Shown here piece by piece: positions 740 through 43,072 of a stretch of DNA of 43,072 bases. The DNA comes from a virus. Both the position numbers and the translations under genes were made by a program. The DNA is taken from IMG/VR virus record IMGVR_UViG_3300015245_000020, positions 1 through 43,072 of that record, one strand, 5' to 3'. Within the stretch, counting starts at the first letter, position 1; each line of letters starts with the position of its first letter. The notes beneath the pieces are model-generated. The model saw only the letters and a list, made by a program, of their open reading frames with translations, had not been told where the DNA came from and ran no database searches.

Positions 740-2743
740 ATGACTACCGAATCACCAGTACAACTGGTGACATTCAGATCTGTACACGATTATGCGAGAG
801 AAAGAGGGTTTGAAGAAGCTGATTTTGAGAAGGCTGGATGGCAAGTATCTCCTCTCGTTAAGGCAAAAGAGGTTTTAGGCCATGAAATCTTCCCTGGTGA
901 CTCCAATGCTTTCGCTCTTGTCTTCCACTACTACACCCCCGATGGCATACCGATGCAGTACGCCACTATCCGGATTGTCCGGAATCAATCGGTGGGATTT
1001 GTCGCATCAACAAATTCTGGCCCAAAGATGCTTAATCCGGCTAGAAAACCTCCGAGGGTGTACTTCTCGAGGAATGTTAGATGGACAGATTTGCCAGAGA
1101 ATACCGAGATCCAAATTCATGAATCAGTCATTAAAGCCGAAGCCGCAATCAAGAAAGGCTATACGGCGATCGGTATATCTGGTTGCTGGGGTTGGCTCAG
1201 CAAGGCCCACCGTATTCCGCTTCTTAATGACTTCGGATTACTACCTTGGGCTTCGAAAGGACTGAAACCTGTTGTAGTCTTTGACTCTAACACTACTCGT
1301 GGATACCCCGAATTTCAAGATTTGCTTGAACTCGCTATACAGCGATTGGCAGGATCCTTTGAGTTGGAACACCACGTTCCTATGCGATTGCGAGTTTTGC
1401 CTGCTGGTCCGGCAGGCAAGTCTTGGGGATATGATGACTGGTGCGTGGCTGGGGGAGGACAATGGCAAGGTGATTCAGGAGAAATAGATAGTGACCAATC
1501 CAGAGCCTGTCTTGAAAAGATAAACACGGAGTTTTCGTATGACCACATCCTACACAGAATCATTCAGATTAGTCCCCCACACTCGGTTATCTCTATTCGG
1601 GATTTCAAGGATAAAATCAAGCCTCTTAGATATCAAGACTCAGAAGGAGACCTTAAACCCGCCAGTGAAGCATGGCTCGTGTGGGATAAACGAACTGAAA
1701 CTTACGGTCCAGTGTACGCTCCAGGGAAAGCGACATTGTTTGACAAGCATATCAATTTCTGGGATGGCTGGGGATGCGAATCTGTACGAGGGGATATTGA
1801 ACCTTTTACGAAACTCTTGTCAAATTGTCTTAATGTCGAAGAACAAAAAGAATTCCTCGCATGGTGCGCATTCGGCATCCAGAAATGCACGCAAAAGAAA
1901 AGCTCAAAAGTCCCAATCCTTGTAGGGGCTGAAGGAGTAGGGAAAAGTGCGATTTTCAGAGTGCTAGGTAGTATCCATGGAGCTAAGAATTGCACATACA
2001 TCAATACGGGGGAGCTAGAGTCAAATTTCAATTCTTATCTCGCCAACAAGACTCTCGTAGTGGTTGATGATTTCACTAAAATGGATGGGAAGACTAATGC
2101 GAAGCTTCGAAACATCTCCACTAATGAAACGATACGCGTCAACTCAAAATTCACACCTGAATACGAAATCCAAAACACTGCGGCCCTTGCCTTCACTGGT
2201 AACGAGTTTGACGGTATCAAGATGGATGAGGAATCGCGCAGGTATCTGGTTCTACGAATGCAACCAAAGGGGCCTACGGATTGGAAAGTATTCTGGGCAT
2301 GGGCCGAGAGCACTGGCCCTTCACATCTCCGCTTTGCTCTTGAAGTGCTTGACATCTCGCAGTTCGATCCGTACGCCCCCGCCATGCTCACTGAAGGAAA
2401 GAAGGTTATGGCAGCGGCATCTCAGTCTGCTCTATACTACTGGCTTCAGGACGTACAGGACCATATTGGAGGACGAGCTGTGGCTACTTCTCGGGAGCTT
2501 GACTTCTTATACGTTCGCTCGGGAGGTGGGTCACAAGATACTACCCCGAATCGTGGGAAGGCTATCTCAGATTGGCTCGCAGCAAAGGGTTACAATCTCG
2601 CAGCATCAGGTGTGAAATTGAAAATTGATGGAATACCAACTCGCGTGTGGGCGATTAAGGCGGAGGCGGCTGGATGGGGAGGAGATAAAGTACGGGCGGA
2701 TATTAGAGAATTTCCTCTGATGAATCTTGTAAAAGGAAGCTAA
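740..2743 (+). CDS. DNA primase-helicase (TOPRIM-like DUF3854 plus SF3-type helicase)
   Basis: The 667-aa protein has two parts. Residues about 90-245 look like a DUF3854/TOPRIM primase domain: HESVIKAEAA with E128, VVVFDSNT with D182, then KSWGYDDW with D232/D233. Residues about 360-510 are a superfamily-3/D5-like AAA+ helicase: Walker A GAEGVGKS (396-403), Walker B LVVVDDF (439-445), sensor TGNE (486-489) and arginines 500/501. It should prime and unwind DNA at the phage origin. It is the only rightward replication gene, and the candidate origin lies directly downstream. The start at 740 follows a weak AAGGG. Confidence 0.8.
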   Translation: MTTESPVQLVTFRSVHDYARERGFEEADFEKAGWQVSPLVKAKEVLGHEIFPGDSNAFALVFHYYTPDGIPMQYATIRIVRNQSVGFVASTNSGPKMLNPARKPPRVYFSRNVRWTDLPENTEIQIHESVIKAEAAIKKGYTAIGISGCWGWLSKAHRIPLLNDFGLLPWASKGLKPVVVFDSNTTRGYPEFQDLLELAIQRLAGSFELEHHVPMRLRVLPAGPAGKSWGYDDWCVAGGGQWQGDSGEIDSDQSRACLEKINTEFSYDHILHRIIQISPPHSVISIRDFKDKIKPLRYQDSEGDLKPASEAWLVWDKRTETYGPVYAPGKATLFDKHINFWDGWGCESVRGDIEPFTKLLSNCLNVEEQKEFLAWCAFGIQKCTQKKSSKVPILVGAEGVGKSAIFRVLGSIHGAKNCTYINTGELESNFNSYLANKTLVVVDDFTKMDGKTNAKLRNISTNETIRVNSKFTPEYEIQNTAALAFTGNEFDGIKMDEESRRYLVLRMQPKGPTDWKVFWAWAESTGPSHLRFALEVLDISQFDPYAPAMLTEGKKVMAAASQSALYYWLQDVQDHIGGRAVATSRELDFLYVRSGGGSQDTTPNRGKAISDWLAAKGYNLAASGVKLKIDGIPTRVWAIKAEAAGWGGDKVRADIREFPLMNLVKGS

Positions 2744-2947
2744 ATGTTCTTGACCCTGTCTGAAGTGGGTTGGGTGTACGCTAAGTTCCGAGGTAGCCAT
2801 GGCTACCTTGTCCAGCTTAATCTTATTGCGGCGCAGCAACTCGCTAAGGAGATCAGAGAACGTAATGGATGGTTTGTGAGGCATAGGATGGCTACCATGG
2901 CTACCTGGAGGCTACCTTCTAAGTACTTGTTTTTAAAGGGGGAGTAG
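2744..2947 (+). CDS. Doubtful 67-aa frame downstream of primase
   Basis: The ATG directly follows the primase TAA, an arrangement that permits re-initiation, and the first 45 codons read as an ordinary helical protein (QQLAKEIRERNGWF). The C-terminal third is made of the GGCTACC repeats of the candidate origin, translating to HRMATMATWRL, and has no independent Shine-Dalgarno sequence. It may be a small origin-proximal gene or chance. Confidence 0.3.
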   Translation: MFLTLSEVGWVYAKFRGSHGYLVQLNLIAAQQLAKEIRERNGWFVRHRMATMATWRLPSKYLFLKGE

Positions 2948-3131
2948 CCATGGTAGCCATGGTAGCCATCAATTTAATATATTAATGTGTGTATATAAAG
3001 AGGTATCTAAAGATGATAATAGTAGTATATAAGGTAGAAAACCATGGCTACCGGCTACCTTGGCTACTCTTGCTTAATAAACAAGTACTTGAAAGGTAGC
3101 CATGGGGTTTTTAGAGCAAACCATGGCTACC
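2792..3131. repeat. Cluster of GGCTACC / CATGGCTACC iteron-like repeats
   Basis: At least ten copies of GGCTACC or its complement lie in 340 bp. They include a perfect 16-bp palindrome GGTAGCCATGGCTACC (2792-2807), copies at 2890, 2896, 2910, 3043, 3053, 3095 and 3122, and three tandem 9-bp units at 2944-2969. They occur in both orientations and nowhere else that I noticed. Such clusters next to a replication initiator are typical protein-binding iterons. About 210 nt from 3132 to 3345 carry no gene, only the promoter and hairpin listed next. Confidence 0.8.
2910..3101. other. Candidate replication origin: inverted repeat around an AT-rich core
   Basis: A roughly 55-bp imperfect inverted repeat (2910-2969 against 3043-3101) contains GGCTACCTT, AAGTACTTGTTT and GAGTAGCCA on both arms. 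The 73 bp between the arms are about three-quarters A+T (AATTTAATATATTAATG and similar), like a DNA-unwinding element. The position directly behind the primase-helicase supports an origin. A recombination or regulatory site is the main alternative. Confidence 0.5.
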
Positions 3132-3271
3132 TGGGACCGCCCTAGACACACGCAGCGCCAAAAGCAGCACGTAGAATATTCGATATTTAGCATATCAAAC
3201 CCGAGGACGACGAGGTGTGTCTGTCCCTCCCGTGTAAGTGGGCGCTAACTTCAACTGTTACAATTTCCCGC

Positions 3272-3300
3272 TTGCATTTGGCCGATCGCTGTGGCATACT
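3272..3300 (+). promoter_or_regulatory. Promoter for the 100-aa protein (TGTGGCATACT type)
   Basis: TTGCAT (3272-3277), a 17-bp spacer ending TGTGG, then CATACT (3295-3300), with the TGn of an extended -10. An almost identical arrangement precedes the gene at 32271-32639 on the other strand. Initiation near 3307 would place the next hairpin at the very 5' end of the RNA. Confidence 0.5.
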
Positions 3301-3307
3301 TGGGTCA

Positions 3308-3326
3308 CCGTGGCAGCCTGCCACGG
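3308..3326 (+). promoter_or_regulatory. 5' stem-loop at predicted transcript start
   Basis: A perfect 8-bp stem CCGTGGCA / TGCCACGG with a GCC loop, followed by ATTTTAAGGAG. It begins at the predicted +1, so it more likely protects the mRNA end than terminates transcription. It could also stop read-through from the primase unit. Confidence 0.55.
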
Positions 3327-3345
3327 ATTTTAAGGAGCTAGGAAA

Positions 3346-3648
3346 ATGAGCAAAAAGCAGAAGGCCGAAGTGGTTGCGCCTGCGGGTGAAGTGGTGGCGG
3401 AAACCGTGCCAGTGGTGGAAGTGGCCAAGCCGGTGGACATCACGCTGGTCCTCGGACCCAAGGCGCCCAAGCATCGCGTCGGGCACAATTCCGCGGCATG
3501 GGCCGTTATCACGCCCATGCTCCCCTGTGGCGCGACCAAGCTGGCCGAGGCTGTGGGCAAGGTCCCCAACATCGGCGGCCCCAAGGGCAACGGGATGCTG
3601 TACGTGTCGTACGCCATGCGGCGAGGCTGGCTAGCCAAGCAGGCATAG
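3346..3648 (+). CDS. 100-aa protein from a strongly expressed single-gene unit, unknown function
   Basis: AAGGAG lies eleven bases before ATGAGCAAAAAGC. The N-terminal 30 residues are a flexible Ala/Val/Glu/Lys tail; residues about 33-100 look folded (HRVGHNSAAWAVITPML, MLYVSYAMRRGWL). Base composition is much richer in G+C than neighbouring genes. It has its own promoter, 5' hairpin, strong ribosome-binding site and terminator, so it should be abundant and made apart from both large blocks. No family is recognised. A nucleic-acid-binding or host-interaction role is possible but unproven. Its expression design is shared with the gene at 32271-32639. Confidence 0.85.
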   Translation: MSKKQKAEVVAPAGEVVAETVPVVEVAKPVDITLVLGPKAPKHRVGHNSAAWAVITPMLPCGATKLAEAVGKVPNIGGPKGNGMLYVSYAMRRGWLAKQA

Positions 3649-13542: not shown

Positions 13543-14712
13543 ATGGCCGAAGAAAGTCTGCGAGAAACACTTGAAAAATCAATGGCTACCGTTGAATCTG
13601 CTGCGGTAGATTCTGGTGGCACCGGGGATAGTTCCGGTGCGGATACTGTAGGGGAGGCAAATGAGGCCGCTTCTGCTGAATCGCAAGATAAAACCCCAGT
13701 TGAAGGACAAGATAAGGCAACTACGGAAGGCCAAGAGAAAGTTCCTGCGGAAGGAGCAGATAAGGCTCCAGTAGAGGGTGATAAGAAACCAGTAGCTGAG
13801 GGAGACAAGAAACTAGCAATTGAAGGGGATAAAAAGCCTGCCGTAAAGGTAGAAGCCAAGGGTGTTCGGGCGCCTGAAAGTTGGAAACCCGCCATTAGGG
13901 ATAAGCACTGGAAAACCCTCCCTACAGAAGTACAGATGGAGATTCTTCGTCGTGAACGTCAAACTGATGAAGCACTCCAAGGTTCTGCTGAATCTCGTAA
14001 AGGTATGGAGCAAGTGCAGGGAGTCTTTGGTCAGTTTAAAGACTTCTTTGAGTTCGAAAAGCTTTCTCCTCTCCAAACTGTACAGAATACACTGAATATG
14101 ATGCGAGCTTTGCGGTTCGCCCAGCCTCCGCAGAAAGCTCAAGTCATGGCTCAAATGATAGCGGGCTTTGATGTAGATGTTACGTTGCTTGACAAAGCTC
14201 TCTCCATGGTTGTTAAACCTTCTGATCCTGCAACTGCGGCGCAGCGAGAAACTAGCAGTGCAGTTCAAGCAATTCTTCAGCGAGAATTGGCGCCTCTTAG
14301 GGATATGATGAAGGGAGTCACAGCCCAAAGAGAACAACAAAGGCAGCAAGAACACAATGTAATGGTGTCTGAAATTCAAACTTTTGCTGATGATCCGCAG
14401 AATGTTTATTTCGATCAAGTACGAGAATCCATGGCAGATATCATGGAAGCTGGCGCAGCAAGAGGACAAAAAATTACCTTGTCAGATGCATACAAACGTG
14501 CTATACTCGCAAATAATGACTTGGCTGAAGTCTATAGTCAAGACCAACTGAAGCAAGCGGCTCGTAAGGTGAATGCGCCCGCTGAAGCTGCTAGACGTAG
14601 AGCGGCTCAGAGCGTAACAGGATCACCTTCTACGGCTGTTTCAGCGGAAGTTGGAGGCTCTATAAGGGATGCATTAGAGGCAGCCATAGTCGCCCACAGT
14701 GGGCGAGCGTAA
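13543..14712 (+). CDS. Putative scaffolding protein
   Basis: The 389-aa protein directly precedes the capsid gene. The N-terminal 110 residues are disordered, acidic and repetitive (EGQDKATTEGQEKVPAEG type units), then RAPESWKPAIRDKHWKTLP starts a long helical region (about 115-350) with coiled-coil stretches. This architecture and position match phage scaffolds that guide capsid assembly and then leave. Residues 275-310 contain DDPQNVYFDQVRESMADIM, a segment also seen in such proteins. Confidence 0.75.
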   Translation: MAEESLRETLEKSMATVESAAVDSGGTGDSSGADTVGEANEAASAESQDKTPVEGQDKATTEGQEKVPAEGADKAPVEGDKKPVAEGDKKLAIEGDKKPAVKVEAKGVRAPESWKPAIRDKHWKTLPTEVQMEILRRERQTDEALQGSAESRKGMEQVQGVFGQFKDFFEFEKLSPLQTVQNTLNMMRALRFAQPPQKAQVMAQMIAGFDVDVTLLDKALSMVVKPSDPATAAQRETSSAVQAILQRELAPLRDMMKGVTAQREQQRQQEHNVMVSEIQTFADDPQNVYFDQVRESMADIMEAGAARGQKITLSDAYKRAILANNDLAEVYSQDQLKQAARKVNAPAEAARRRAAQSVTGSPSTAVSAEVGGSIRDALEAAIVAHSGRA

Positions 14713-24300: not shown

Positions 24301-25647
24301 ATGGCTCGTAACGCTGCCGGAATATACAGTCTACCCGATGCCCCAGTGGTGGCAGGGACTACCATTACTTCTGCAGATGAAAACACCACGCGCAATGACA
24401 TAGCCGCAGAAATCACCAATTCCCTAGATCGTAATGGACGTGGAGCGATGCTCGCCCCATTGCTGATTCTTGATGGCGTAGTTGGTCAGCCAGGAATAGC
24501 CTTCGGCGCTGATACCAACACAGGTATCTATAGAAGTGGCACAGATACGATGGTGCTGGTCGCTGGTGGTGGTGCGGTTATCACCATCACCACTGCGGGA
24601 GTAGCTGTAACTGGAACTCTTTCCAGTGGTCAAATCACAGCTAACCTTACCGGCAATGTCACTGGAAATGCTTCTACAGTTACGACAAATGCGAATCTTA
24701 CAGGGCCAGTTACCTCTGTAGGAAATGCGACCACTATCGCATCTGGCAATACCTATGTGAATCCTACACTGAGCGGTACAGTGTCAGGAACGCCTACTTG
24801 GGCGAGTACGCAGTCGCTCAACACAAGTGGAAACGCGGCAACAGTCACAACGAATGCAAATCTGACTGGCCCGATTACTTCTGTGGGTAACGCGACCACA
24901 ATTGCATCGGGCAATACCTACACTAATCCCACTCTAAGTGGGACTGTATCAGGGACTCCCAGTTGGGCAAGCACTCAATCTCTTAATACGAGTGGGAATG
25001 CTGGTACAGCGACAACTCTACAAACTGCTAGAAACATCAACGGTGTCTCTTTCAATGGCAGTGCAGATATTACGATAACCGCCGTGGCAGCAGCAGGAAC
25101 TCTTACAGGGGCGACTTTAGCCGCAGGAGTAACTGCATCTTCATTAATCTCTGCTGGTACTAGTTTTGTTTGGGGAACTGGAGTAGCTAATTTCGGTACA
25201 ATCACAAGGCGTAAAACTGCAGATGAATCCGTTACATCCTCTACAACATTTCAGGATGATGATCACCTCACCTTCCCGATCGGCGCGAATGAAGAATGGG
25301 TAGCCACTTATGAAATAGATGCAGGAGCATTTTTATCCACATGTGGAGTAAAAACAGCAATCACTGTTCCATCTGGCGCAACTATGAATGCTACTGGATC
25401 TGTTGTAGGCTCTAGTTCTGCTAGTAATACAGTGGGCCAAACTGGAAGAGGCACAACTAGCGGAGGGAATGTTTTGCTTGCCAGTGTGGGAGCTGGAAAT
25501 ACAGATGCTATTGTTCGAATGTCAGTTTGGGTTCTTAATGGAGCCACTCCTGGAAATGTAACCCTTCAATGGGCGCAAACTAATTCTAGTGCGACCTCTT
25601 TGACATTTCGCAAGGGATCATACATGCAGGCCACGAGAGTGGCATAA
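24301..25647 (+). CDS. Tail fibre protein
   Basis: The 448-aa protein starts MARNAAGIYSLPDAPVVAGTTI, a conserved N-terminal fibre anchor pattern (virion attachment). Residues about 110-240 are Thr/Ser/Asn-rich fibre repeats (two 55-aa copies), followed by TARNINGVSFNGSADITIT, a motif widespread in phage tail fibres. The C-terminal 170 residues are beta-rich and likely hold the receptor-binding tip. It should determine host range. Confidence 0.85.
   Translation: MARNAAGIYSLPDAPVVAGTTITSADENTTRNDIAAEITNSLDRNGRGAMLAPLLILDGVVGQPGIAFGADTNTGIYRSGTDTMVLVAGGGAVITITTAGVAVTGTLSSGQITANLTGNVTGNASTVTTNANLTGPVTSVGNATTIASGNTYVNPTLSGTVSGTPTWASTQSLNTSGNAATVTTNANLTGPITSVGNATTIASGNTYTNPTLSGTVSGTPSWASTQSLNTSGNAGTATTLQTARNINGVSFNGSADITITAVAAAGTLTGATLAAGVTASSLISAGTSFVWGTGVANFGTITRRKTADESVTSSTTFQDDDHLTFPIGANEEWVATYEIDAGAFLSTCGVKTAITVPSGATMNATGSVVGSSSASNTVGQTGRGTTSGGNVLLASVGAGNTDAIVRMSVWVLNGATPGNVTLQWAQTNSSATSLTFRKGSYMQATRVA
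24688..25017 (+). repeat. Two 165-bp (55-aa) fibre repeats
   Basis: Residues 130-184 and 185-239 of the fibre are nearly identical (NANLTGPVTSVGNATTIASG against NANLTGPITSVGNATTIASG) while many third codon positions differ. The duplication is therefore old and held by selection on the protein. Confidence 0.85.
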
Positions 25648-29516: not shown

Positions 29517-30428
29517 CTAAATGCTCTCTTTACGTGCTCTATAGCGCTCGCAAACAAGACGCCAGTCCGAGGCTTGGCAATTTTGATAATCTCCATTCAG
29601 AATTGGCATGGCTACTTCATTGAAGAAAGGTTCTCTTAAATGCCCTTTCATGCCAGCCACTACATGCTCACACTCTTGCAACCAGTTCTTTAGTGAACCT
29701 TGAATTAGCGGATAAGGTTTCACCCCGGCTTCGTGATAAGTTTCGCAGTACGGCGGCATGTCTACGAAATGCCAGTGGCGCTCATAGACATGCAGATTGT
29801 TTGTGAATTGATACATCTTTCCCACTTCCAACCCTACTTCATGGGCTATAAGCTCCATGAGAAAGCTAAAGTGCACAATATTCGAACCTAGTGCTCCCCA
29901 CACTAAATCATTTGATCTATTGCACACGGTCATATCTAGACTAGTGCCATTCCTACGAAAATAGATATGCGTGTTACAGGGAAGATCTTTTTGAGTCTGA
30001 TCTAAATCTAATGCAGTATCCCACATGGATATTACAGCTCTACGAGTCCATGGATCCTTCTTTATGAGGTTGCATATTGCCAAGATTTGATCAATGCCCC
30101 ACAGAATTCTCCACCTGTACCCATAGGCTCCATGGAAAATGCCTGATTCATTTGCAAAATCTCTCATGCGTGGGTTGAATTTTGAAATCCACTCGGAATC
30201 ATCTCTTCCTGACATCATCCATAGGCATTCGGCAAAGTGGAATACTGGATTTTCCATTCTCTCTTTACAGAGGATAACCCGCTCTGTAGGAAATAGAGTG
30301 CACAAGAGAGTTGGCTCTCTTAGAGTTTTGACCTTGCCGTTGCGCGATTCTTCCTCTATGGCAGCAGATCTTACGTACCATAGGGCTTCAGGAAACAGAC
30401 TATTGACGTTACTCCCCACTATTTCCAT
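29517..30428 (-). CDS. Thymidylate synthase / dUMP hydroxymethylase-type protein
   Basis: The 303-aa member of the ThyA superfamily has the catalytic Cys in DLPCNTHIYF (C151), phosphate-binding R129/R130, CNRSNDLVWGALGSN (R171, D174, N183) and HVYERH (H213, Y215). Spacing from C151 to R171 and D174 equals that of E. coli ThyA. The segment between D174 and N183 has one extra residue, so it belongs to a divergent phage branch. Retaining Asn favours dUMP over dCMP as substrate. It may make dTMP or 5-hydroxymethyl-dUMP; context with modification enzymes favours the latter or both. GAGG lies nine bases before the ATG. Confidence 0.85.
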   Translation of the reverse strand: MEIVGSNVNSLFPEALWYVRSAAIEEESRNGKVKTLREPTLLCTLFPTERVILCKERMENPVFHFAECLWMMSGRDDSEWISKFNPRMRDFANESGIFHGAYGYRWRILWGIDQILAICNLIKKDPWTRRAVISMWDTALDLDQTQKDLPCNTHIYFRRNGTSLDMTVCNRSNDLVWGALGSNIVHFSFLMELIAHEVGLEVGKMYQFTNNLHVYERHWHFVDMPPYCETYHEAGVKPYPLIQGSLKNWLQECEHVVAGMKGHLREPFFNEVAMPILNGDYQNCQASDWRLVCERYRARKESI

Positions 30429-30588
30429 CTGGAAGTTCCTCGTATTTTAGATCATTTCGATCAGCAAAAGCCTTAGCGGCTTCCTTTGAAGGAAAAACCT
30501 CTGTTTTCCATTCATCTTCAACTGTGATAGTGGCCGTAAGTCTACCATCTGGGTAGATATACCTCACTATGAGATTACCGACTGGCAT
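30409..30588 (-). CDS. Small protein, 59 aa, overlapping the thymidylate synthase gene
   Basis: It starts at ATG 30588 (MPVGNLIVRYIYPDG); a TTG at 30612 would add eight residues. Beta-strand then helix pattern (LTATITVEDEWKTEVFPSKEAAKAFADRN) suggests a small compact domain. It overlaps both neighbours by 14-20 bases, an ordinary packing for this operon. No family is recognised. Confidence 0.55.
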   Translation of the reverse strand: MPVGNLIVRYIYPDGRLTATITVEDEWKTEVFPSKEAAKAFADRNDLKYEELPDGNSGE

Positions 30589-31402
30589 GGTATCTCTGCT
30601 TTGGTCTTCCAAGACCAGCGTGGGCTCTCCAGTATTTGGAGAACTCGCATAGACAATTCTGGAAATCTTGCATACAAATCTCCAATTTTTCTCCTCGTAT
30701 TTCTTCCACCTGTGCTTTTACTTTTTGTGCAACTGCTAGAAATTGGCCTTGGGGAAGGTCAGATTGCGCTGTGACCGCTCGCAAGCCCTTAAGGCTACCG
30801 GGGCCTACAGCCGCCCACGTCCAGTAGTCTGGGGCCATTGCGAGGGGGTTGACCATTGTATTCTTAAGGTCAGCCACTACTTGAGCAGCGAGAAAATTAC
30901 CTAATCCTTTGAATTGCATGAGCCGTGTGTGAAAGGACTCCAGAGATTCTAAAGGGCGCGGTTCAACTTTAGAATTATGAACTACGCACGCAATATCCAC
31001 TATGTAGTCCATCTTATCCATCTGCACGCCGCAAGTGGTGACAAGATAGGCGGGGTTGAGCCATGTACGACCTGAATTTCTTTGATGACGAATACCTTCG
31101 CGAATCGTATACCAATCCCAGGGATCTGGGAATCCTACTTTAGCTAGGGTTTCTGGATTATTAATAAGTCGAGCCAAAACCATAGCGGCAGTGAAGTTTG
31201 AGCTATCTCCATGTGGCTCTCTCCAATTCTTAGCAAGCCAGCGAGTAACTTTATCATCTTCTCTTCGCACATTACAGAAGCGATATGCTTGTAAGATTGG
31301 GTCTTTAGTCCACGGTGGGGGAGCTTGGTCATCTTCTTTACGGATACGTATAGCTTCGCGTTCTCGTATCCAGTATTCTAAGAGCCTTACGCGCTCATTC
31401 AT
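30575..31402 (-). CDS. Alpha-glutamyl/putrescinyl-thymine pyrophosphorylase family protein (HMUDK helical domain)
   Basis: The 275-aa protein matches the clade by YWIREREAIRIRKE (10-23), PPPWTKDPILQAYRFCNVRR (28-47), FKGLGNFLAAQVVADLK helix-hairpin-helix (164-180), VGPGSLKGL (199-207) and the C-terminal DFQNCLCEFSKYWRAH. In phages such as SP10 and phi-W-14, relatives replace pyrophosphate on 5-hydroxymethyl-dU in DNA; the fold resembles helix-hairpin-helix DNA glycosylases. No Walker A kinase is fused to it. The start at ATG 31402 (GGAGAGCGAG before it) overlaps the upstream glycosyltransferase stop by 8 bases. Confidence 0.85.
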   Translation of the reverse strand: MNERVRLLEYWIREREAIRIRKEDDQAPPPWTKDPILQAYRFCNVRREDDKVTRWLAKNWREPHGDSSNFTAAMVLARLINNPETLAKVGFPDPWDWYTIREGIRHQRNSGRTWLNPAYLVTTCGVQMDKMDYIVDIACVVHNSKVEPRPLESLESFHTRLMQFKGLGNFLAAQVVADLKNTMVNPLAMAPDYWTWAAVGPGSLKGLRAVTAQSDLPQGQFLAVAQKVKAQVEEIRGEKLEICMQDFQNCLCEFSKYWRAHAGLGRPKQRYHASR

Positions 31403-32210
31403 CTCGCTCTCCATGACCATAGTGTGGAAGATCTTGTTTGCGAAGCCCTTCAGCATAGGCTTTCTTCCAATAAATTATGACATCTGTACGGGGTTTTCCG
31501 CCCCATGCAGTCTTGGTTTCTTTTTGCACTATCTTCACAAAAGCGGGGAATCGATCATGCAGAGCTTGGGCAGCGGCAGTCTGCACTTCAGAAGTGCGAT
31601 AAGTAGAACATCCACCAGAAGTATCACTGCCATGCTGATTTTGTACTATCCAGTTGATATTTATAACTGGATAACCGCGAGTTAGAAGTTCTAGCACTAC
31701 GCCAAAGTCATTCATGACATCAGCTACAGTGGCTTTGATGCATAGATTTTCTAAAGTATCTGCTCTGTACCCCAGTACTCGCATGAGACGAGTATTTTTA
31801 CAGTATGGTTCGGTATTTCGGTTGGCACCTTCGCGTCCGGATACTCCCACCATGTCGAATTGATCTAGCAAGCGGCTTATATCTTCGAACATATCCAAGA
31901 TATCCGAATCTACCGCATTTCTGAATTTAGTGGGGTCATCGTGGCGACGTCTGGCGAATGTTAAATCATCATCGAGCATCACCACTTTGTGTTCCCCACA
32001 GCGCAGAGTTTCTTCTAGAATCCACTGACGTTTCTCGGCAATGCCGTGAACAGTGTGAGGTACAACCATGCGAAGACCGGGGTTTATTTCATATGCGCCC
32101 AGTTCCTCTGGATAAATGCAAAGGAATGTTTTCTTGCGAAGTTCCTCTGGTAGGGAATTTAGTGTTGTTTGGCGAGTAGCTCGCCCTTTGCTCGGAATAA
32201 CTATGAGCAT
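31395..32210 (-). CDS. GT-A glycosyltransferase, probably TET-associated (TAGT) type, acting on modified DNA bases
   Basis: The 271-aa enzyme starts MLIVIPSKGRATRQTTLNSL, the nucleotide-sugar-binding strand of GT-A folds, then HGIAEKRQWILEE and KVVMLDDDLTFARRR with metal-binding D80-D81-D82. NINWIVQNQHGSDTSGGCS is a probable acceptor or active-site loop. This set resembles the TAGT family that lies beside base-modifying enzymes in phages. It would transfer a sugar to a hydroxylated pyrimidine in DNA. AAGGAG directly follows the terminator hairpin at 32221-32249. Confidence 0.7.
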   Translation of the reverse strand: MLIVIPSKGRATRQTTLNSLPEELRKKTFLCIYPEELGAYEINPGLRMVVPHTVHGIAEKRQWILEETLRCGEHKVVMLDDDLTFARRRHDDPTKFRNAVDSDILDMFEDISRLLDQFDMVGVSGREGANRNTEPYCKNTRLMRVLGYRADTLENLCIKATVADVMNDFGVVLELLTRGYPVININWIVQNQHGSDTSGGCSTYRTSEVQTAAAQALHDRFPAFVKIVQKETKTAWGGKPRTDVIIYWKKAYAEGLRKQDLPHYGHGERDE

Positions 32211-34354: not shown

Positions 34355-34980
34355 GGCCCACCCTTGAGACGAGAATAATTGCACCAGCGACAATGTTGTC
34401 CTGGGCGTGGAGAAAAGAATGTATCGTTGAGCATTGGGGTGACTATATCTTGCCAGCGCCTTTGCTCCTCTGGAACTTGTTCTCTAAGGAGTACATCTGG
34501 CACTGCGTAGTCCAAATCGGCATAGATAGTTTCGATTTCTGCACTAATGGCTTGGGGGAAGGCAGACATAGTCAAGCACAGATAAAGACGACGTTGGGTG
34601 GCATGGTCTTCATACTGCTTGCCCGTTTTCCATTCACCCATCTTTATTCTATCATCAGCACAGAGAAATGCGTCTATCACACAACGCACCCATGCGTCTG
34701 GGGATTTCCAATCTACTACTTTCCAGTCTTTATCTAGGGCTAGCTTTAATTCTGGTTGAAAACTAGAGCCACGCATTCCTTCAGCCTTTTGCCGCGTGAA
34801 TGAACGAATATTACCATGCCATTCTCCGGTTTGGAGGTAGGCTTCAAGTTGTCCATGAATCTCTGTACCACGAGCTGCGGCAGGGCCTGATGGGTCAGGT
34901 ATTCTTTGTACGACCCGGAAATTGTACGCACTCGGGCATTTCTTGTAGAGTCCATGCTGGCTAAGGCTCCAGGGTAGCAT
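34339..34980 (-). CDS. Cas4/RecB-like PD-(D/E)XK exonuclease with four cysteines
   Basis: The 213-aa protein (ATG 34980, GGAG upstream) has SQHGLYKKCPSAYNF (C15), RGTEIHGQLEAYL (H42), PELKL (E77), CVIDAF (D103), GEWKTGK (E116, K118), TQRRLY (Q129, Y133) and a C-terminal HCRWCNYSRLKGGPC (C198, C201, C211). One N-terminal plus three C-terminal cysteines is the iron-sulfur arrangement of Cas4/AddB-like nucleases. It probably resects DNA ends in replication-recombination. No CRISPR genes are nearby. Confidence 0.85.
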   Translation of the reverse strand: MLPWSLSQHGLYKKCPSAYNFRVVQRIPDPSGPAAARGTEIHGQLEAYLQTGEWHGNIRSFTRQKAEGMRGSSFQPELKLALDKDWKVVDWKSPDAWVRCVIDAFLCADDRIKMGEWKTGKQYEDHATQRRLYLCLTMSAFPQAISAEIETIYADLDYAVPDVLLREQVPEEQRRWQDIVTPMLNDTFFSPRPGQHCRWCNYSRLKGGPCLVA

Positions 34981-42769: not shown

Positions 42770-43000
42770 TTAATGGACGGTTTGGTAATTTGCAGGATCT
42801 CCGGCGAATAGATAATCTCCGCAGAAGAATATTTGGAAGGGAATTTCGGGATACGCAGTCTTAAGAAGTTCAAGAGCCTGCTTGGCTCCATGAGGACCAT
42901 TAAGACGATCGAAATACTGAAGAATCGGTGCGCCCTCCACATCTATACGTGAGATGGAGAAGGCCCACCGAAAATCCTCATCATCTATGCGAGCAGCCAT
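42770..43000 (-). CDS. Early hypothetical protein, 76 aa
   Basis: ATG at 43000 is preferred (AGGG upstream); an in-frame TTG at 43039 would add 13 residues. It starts MAARIDDEDFRWAFSISRID and has a helix GAKQALELLKTAYPEI then FQIFFCGDYLF. No family is recognised. Its start overlaps the end of the 27-aa membrane peptide by 16 bases. About 100 bases without a gene follow (42666-42769), in which I see only a weak TACAAT. Confidence 0.6.
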   Translation of the reverse strand: MAARIDDEDFRWAFSISRIDVEGAPILQYFDRLNGPHGAKQALELLKTAYPEIPFQIFFCGDYLFAGDPANYQTVH

Positions 43001-43068
43001 GCGAGTAGCCCTAAAACAATGGCGAAATACAGAGCCCAAAAGATACCTGTTTCAGTGAGTGCACGCAT
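42985..43068 (-). CDS. 27-aa single-span membrane peptide across the contig join
   Basis: ATG at 43068 (equal to position 73) has GGAGG nine bases upstream, visible only in the left copy at 82-88. Seven polar residues (MRALTET) precede a hydrophobic helix GIFWALYFAIVLGLLAWLLA that runs to the stop. It should insert in the inner membrane. Its place among early genes argues against lysis and for a host-membrane or exclusion role. Splitting by the contig ends would make automated annotation miss it. Confidence 0.6.
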   Translation of the reverse strand: MRALTETGIFWALYFAIVLGLLAWLLA

Positions 43069-43072
43069 TGAA
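42996..43072. repeat. Right copy of 77-bp terminal overlap
   Basis: Identical to positions 1-77; see that entry. Features lying here are listed once, with coordinates at this end where they are whole. Confidence 0.9.

Follow-up and report, generated by a model that had tools for sequence, protein, structure and literature searches.

What is the function of a dense array of short repeats directly behind the primase-helicase gene of an environmental phage, and which protein reads it? The array (2792-3131) is located in a viral record of 43,072 bp, which was analysed over its whole length and is called the window below. To our knowledge the replication origins of most environmental phages are unknown. 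A first-pass annotation had taken it for an origin in which initiator sites flank an unwinding element. A conserved layout, iterons which change in concert and the counterpart in phage Sfi21 support this proposal at the sequence level, and the element most probably is the replication origin of the phage.

The record has a 77-bp direct terminal repeat (1-77 is identical to 42996-43072). Thus, it very probably represents a full genome of 42,995 bp which was assembled as a circle. The phage carries its own terminase, portal and polymerase genes. On the minus strand, genes for thymidylate synthase, a 5-hmdU DNA kinase helical domain and a TET-associated glycosyltransferase stand in a row (29517-32210). 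Judged by this gene row, the phage DNA probably contains hypermodified thymine, which could include the iterons. tRNA genes and Rfam families were not found in the 43,072-bp window. The GC-skew minimum is near the record ends, about 2-3 kb from the array. As the genes change direction close to this minimum, the skew is confounded by the divergent gene layout and was not used as evidence.

Anatomy of the repeat array

The gene in front of the array (740-2743, plus strand) codes for a protein of 667 amino acids. Its designation as a primase-helicase was borne out by Pfam: DUF5906 matched with 71 bits and DUF3854 with 22.6, just below the cut-off of 23. The first iteron is 49 bp past the stop codon at 2743. 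Between 2792 and 3131 the word GGTAGCC is present in eleven exact copies, four forward (starting at 2792, 2952, 2961 and 3095) and seven reverse (2801, 2890, 2899, 2910, 3046, 3053 and 3125). Two AGTAGCC copies with one mismatch each (2943, forward; 3062, reverse) bring the total to 13; at least ten GGTAGCC/GGCTACC copies had been claimed. The Poisson probability of eleven GGTAGCC within 340 bp is about 2e-25. In the whole record 18 copies were found versus 3.5 expected from shuffles. The seven beyond the array are single and scattered over the remaining 42.7 kb, i.e. a crr-like second iteron region was not found.

The array starts with a palindromic iteron pair, GGTAGCCATGGCTACC (2792-2807), which is the perfect 16-bp palindrome noticed earlier and occupies the same relative site in the related locus L020. 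It is followed by a reverse triplet (2890-2916; copies at 2890, 2899 and 2910), also present in the relatives L020 and L034. A 26-bp spacer with AAGTACTTGTTTTTAAAGGGG (2917-2942) leads to the forward triplet (2943-2967), the previously described tandem triplet. It has a 9-bp period, its first copy is AGTAGCC, and a triplet of three forward copies is also found in L020, L034 and L047. Next is an AT-rich core of 73 bp (2968-3040), the putative unwinding element. With 79.5% A+T it is the AT-richest 73-bp stretch of the record, the runner-up elsewhere having 71%. On its right side is a second reverse triplet (3046-3068; copies at 3046, 3053 and 3062, the last with one mismatch), and L020, L034 and L078 have reverse copies at the same place. 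The core is thus flanked by opposed triplets. Two outer iterons, one forward (3095-3101) and one reverse (3125-3131), complete the array.

The element had also been described as a large inverted repeat with mirrored arms of about 55 bp. A mirror does exist, yet the arms have 49 nt with 84% complementarity (2910-2958 versus 3053-3101) and are separated by an interval of 94 nt. Outside of the iterons, AAGTACTTGTTT at 2921-2932 is mirrored on the opposite strand at 3079-3090, and this mirror copy was absent from nine relatives. As a unit the large inverted repeat is not conserved. Its non-iteron part, AAGTACTTG, and the mirror thereof occur in this phage only, which makes a long hairpin unlikely as the signal. 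By sequence comparison the conserved units are the iterons with their number, spacing and orientation, not a long hairpin.

A frame of 67 amino acids on the plus strand (2744-2947) overlaps the array and probably is no gene. It had no match in Pfam or PHROGs and no convincing counterpart in the loci of the relatives; the best tblastn hit, with an E-value of 0.02, was an unrelated bacterial locus.

Iteron arrays beside other primase-helicases

A DNA relative of the region 740-3400 was not present among phage records in the phage and plasmid collections, and when viral contigs were scanned with the single primase sequence none was retrieved. A search with a primase alignment, i.e. with the protein alone, yielded 22 loci. 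Most of those which extend far enough downstream carry an array of GGTAGCC, GGTTGCC, CAGTAGC or GGGTATTC. The primase of L020 (genome G005) is 62.6% identical and the gene order is as in this phage. Its array (14414-14692) consists of a palindromic pair, a reverse triplet, a spacer, a forward triplet, about 79 bp and a reverse triplet; the flanking DNA cannot be aligned to this phage. Because other genes are in between, the L020 array is about 4.5 kb away from the primase gene. The plan is also retained in L034. The spacer element, AAGTRCTTG, recurs in this position in L087, L089 and L034, and in looser form in L092. The gap between forward and opposed reverse iterons was 64-114 bp in 15 of 17 arrays, and in most of them it is enriched in A+T relative to the locus.

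The iteron word is exchanged between close relatives. The nearest one, L086, has a primase with 76% identity and at the same syntenic place an array of GGTTGCC. GGTTGCC is also used in L087 and L099, GGTAGCC in L096, L103 and L104, and CAGTAGC in L092. The 17 tabulated arrays were each purely GGTAGCC or purely GGTTGCC; none was mixed. The supported branches of the primase tree force at least three changes between both words. Such a concerted change of all sites in a phage points to one trans-acting, phage-borne reader. An unrelated word, GGGTATTC, forms an array of opposed pairs in L094 (12219-12459), about 3.2 kb downstream of the primase relative. According to the first-pass annotation, absence of the repeats beside homologous primases would speak against an origin. 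Arrays were mostly found; L100-L102, three near-identical distant relatives, had none within 5-7 kb of the primase. TTGACGA clusters beside their primases were rejected as they look like coding matches. With a 7-mer cluster method no clear array emerged near the primases of L069-L071.

IMG/VR was further scanned at the DNA level only, for two iterons of equal orientation plus one of the opposite. Loci with only two or three clustered iterons were left out (L005, L007, L009-L012, L014, L015 and L017), and collagen-like and other coding repeats from scans for GGTAGCC triples were set aside after Pfam searches. A search behind other DUF3854 primase genes had been suggested, and GGTAGCC arrays indeed adjoin DUF3854-like/DUF5906 primase-helicases in L072-L074. 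Other arrays of this word are 2 bp past the stop codon of a Prim-Pol/VapE gene (L078), beside a Prim-Pol/D5_N/DUF5906 gene (L022), beside a D5_N/DUF5906 gene (L038) and, in Acetobacteraceae, beside a PHROG primase family (L047, L057 and L058). In L075 (6667-6781) nine GGTAGCC copies of mixed orientation are next to a C5-cytosine methylase and an AAA_25 ATPase, which is not a P4-type primase.

The same shape with GGTTGCC retrieved 31 loci, 30 of which were new. Among the 30, local HMMs detected 22 loci with a VapE/DUF5906 primase-helicase. The gene ends 0-27 bp from the array in 21 of them, the exception being L118 with 1.07 kb. Ten large neighbours were assigned by Pfam, nine as VapE/DUF5906 primase-helicases and one as an AAA_25 helicase. 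These counts include near-identical phages and are not all independent; still, they cover primases of at least six distinct sizes and types. L125, L127 and L130 have at most five copies each and may be due to chance. L119, L124, L128 and L129 contain full arrays, with no primase detected in the stretch of DNA examined. In one phage, G016, about 13 kb separate two full arrays of GGTTGCC, near 4.1-4.3 kb and 17.2-17.6 kb (L124, 4071-4317, and L126, 1311-1637). One is behind the primase-helicase gene, the other between amidase and integrase genes; the arrays of L119 and L129 are in the same kind of place. The arrangement in G016 recalls ori and crr of P4. In L128 (7669-7873) twelve GGTTGCC copies are inside an open frame with a GcrA-like domain. 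As a control, a scan for the reversed word in an identical arrangement found five loci with maximally four copies.

Bacterial genomes were covered by a species-representative collection. Only two of its 14 triple-repeat hits were mixed-orientation arrays, both from Acetobacteraceae and both beside a replication gene. This argues against a mobile element scattered through host genomes, which had been named earlier as a finding that would speak against an origin.

The primase-helicase as candidate reader

An AlphaFold model of the primase-helicase was built with 16 relatives (pLDDT 82). The modelled helicase part matched best the C-terminal region of NrS-1 (Z 25.9), and further the SaPI5 primase-helicase (Z 17.8); the N-terminal part matched DnaG primases (Z about 13). 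From these predicted structures the protein appears to be a DnaG/Toprim-like primase (residues about 1-250) joined to an SF3 helicase with DUF5906 (residues about 250-540). The match to TIGR01613, the P4-type primase, was weak. By the DUF5906 score and the SaPI5 and NrS-1 matches, the putative initiator is of the D5/VapE/DUF5906 SF3 class, as in origins of the Sfi21 and PICI type. The similarity to NrS-1 polymerase (6k9c) is confined to the helicase part; the primase part is of another kind.

The last 127 residues (541-667, coded by 2360-2740) were modelled alone (pLDDT 79). They matched mostly winged-helix domains, all weakly, with a best Z of 6.8. A C-terminal winged helix is therefore likely, short of proven, and it is our candidate for the domain that reads the iterons. 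The P4 origin-binding domain was not among the structure matches, all of which were weak.

Does a residue in this domain follow the iteron word? In the primase family, column 721 of alignment A2, i.e. Pro633 in the predicted wing, is Pro in all GGTAGCC phages and Thr or Ser in all GGTTGCC phages. No other column is invariant among the GGTAGCC phages and differs in those with GGTTGCC. Taken alone this is not significant, as five of 16 phylogenetically matched labelings yield one or more columns of this kind. Within the VapE group, a neighbouring wing position sets the single GGTAGCC phage apart from all those with GGTTGCC. Because the switches are so few, we consider the correlation a lead, not a result.

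On this lead we formulate a wider proposal. GGTAGCC and GGTTGCC may be the two states of an origin code used by unrelated phages. A shared C-terminal winged-helix reader, fused to differing helicase and primase types, would recognize both, the wing residue (Pro633 versus Thr/Ser) would help to set the centre base, and the arrays would switch together with the initiator. Based on sequence comparisons, we hold this to be possible and on balance doubtful. A shared C-terminal module would be the simplest reading of the same words beside differing helicases. Perhaps switching of the array allows the phage to escape resident phages or satellites that interfere with it, or defences directed at the origin.

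Known origins and other readings of the array

The first-pass annotation had not recognized the layout from well-known phages. In fact, the layout itself is already known. In the Streptococcus thermophilus phage Sfi21 (NC_000872) the region 34487-34784 is annotated as 'origin of replication, 302 bp non-coding region'. It is directly behind the primase gene, and pairs of AGTTACT are opposed across an AT-rich core. PMC6356513 cites it as an independent origin. Sfi21 thus shares the position behind the primase gene and the opposed paired short repeats around an AT-rich core. It differs by the AGTTACT repeat, an 8-bp spacing, fewer copies and a Prim-Pol part that is a separate gene. In the origins of phage-inducible islands, two sets of iterons surround an AT-rich region immediately 3' of pri-rep, and these origins sustain plasmid replication; the plan was said not to be shared by other known bacterial replicons (PMC6092414). 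SaPI Rep and SCCmec Cch2 read such sites via the C-terminal domain (PMC7581432). The resemblance to the PICI/SaPI pri-rep-ori unit concerns the layout and the SaPI5 helicase match. The islands are satellites, and the SaPI primases are of the AEP type, whereas here we deal with a 43-kb phage and a Toprim-like primase part.

Arrays, each with a word of its own, are also right behind the primase-helicase or helicase genes of the cultured phages LunBun, phiCDKH02, phiFL4A, 2638A and PH15. In Streptococcus phage PH15 (L145, 4664-4934) eleven copies of GGTAGCA, mostly as CGGTAGCA, follow a VapE helicase gene. The word is close to GGTAGCC; the PH15 record lists no origin feature there. By the 7-mer cluster method, the primases of VP2, FoX4, Epa5, Emery, Javan100 and NatCom_26447 were not followed by a clear array. 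A cluster of DnaA boxes was absent from the array, and the whole window has a single TTATCCACA, at 25333.

The P4 alpha protein has a winged-helix origin-binding domain and the type-I iteron of P4 is GGTGAACAG. The similarity to P4 alpha with its ori1 and crr consists in the iterons and the P4-type primase-helicase (TIGR01613), a weak match here; of the P4 iteron no exact copy was present on either strand of the window.

We consider it very likely, on comparative sequence evidence, that the element is a replication origin with GGTAGCC as its iteron, and that the adjoining primase-helicase binds it and opens the core. Binding would most likely be mediated by the C-terminal winged-helix domain, as suggested by the co-divergence of primase and iterons and by the related systems. 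The opposed triplets would place helicase rings on both sides of the AT-rich core, and ATP-driven melting would open it (2968-3040). The SF3 rings would then engage the single strands and travel outwards while the primase part lays the first primers. Ring loading, melting, outward movement and priming are modelled here on SF3 helicases in general.

Could the iterons be initiator sites of an origin which is read by a separate phage or host protein? In favour of this, both words adjoin quite different helicases, i.e. Toprim-like/DUF5906, Prim-Pol/VapE, Prim-Pol/D5_N and once AAA_25, and between the DUF5906 and VapE groups there is only a weak alignment of the C-terminal domains (probability 12%). 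Against this, the iteron varies between close relatives and tracks single phage lineages, a change that a fixed host protein would not explain. Further, no second gene is consistently adjacent, the 67-amino-acid frame is not conserved, and related systems have an initiator helicase which does the binding itself (PMC7581432). Therefore, we regard a separate reader as unlikely. A function as one large hairpin or cruciform, of the kind suggested for the stem-loop origins of pRN1 and BIP-1, is quite improbable for the element. The complementary arms of this phage would be compatible with it, and pRN1, which like BIP-1 has its origin behind a gene for primase, SF3 helicase and winged helix, requires a 100-nt stem-loop at this place (PMC4234260). 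Yet what defines these origins is a stem-loop, and in the present array the conserved feature is another one: outside of the iterons, this phage has no inverted repeat of at least 9 bp in common with nine relatives, and the AAGTACTTG mirror is private.

A role as operators of a phage repressor or another regulator, with no part in replication, is very improbable. A promoter-like match (2954-2983) does overlap the forward triplet; one such match is expected by chance. In unrelated phages the arrays go with the genes for primase-helicases and not with those for repressors. The annotation of Sfi21 calls the counterpart an origin, and a simple operator has no use for an AT-rich core between opposed iterons. 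For a mobile element, a repeat of coding origin or a cluster formed by chance, the probability is negligible. Tandem GGTAGCC runs do arise by coding bias in collagen-like and similar genes, but mixed-orientation arrays of at least five copies were not of that kind, with one exception (L037). Scattering as a mobile element is contradicted by the two bacterial arrays among 14 hits and chance by the Poisson probability given above; as it stands, the linkage to primase-helicase genes refutes all three.

A replication origin read by its own primase-helicase thus remains the preferred reading. A link of GGTAGCC or GGTTGCC to phage origins was not found in open-access papers. The word GGTAGCC, its spread over many unrelated phages and the all-or-none switches by one letter appear not to have been described before. 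As opposed pairs, the two 7-bp words locate origin-like arrays and the adjoining initiator gene in numerous phages without gene calling. With pure arrays of either GGTAGCC or GGTTGCC, close relatives whose primases are 76% identical constitute a natural series in which the specificity between initiator and origin, and the cost of switching all iterons together, can be studied. Together with Sfi21, these phages show that the plan known from the phage-inducible islands is common in phages, too.
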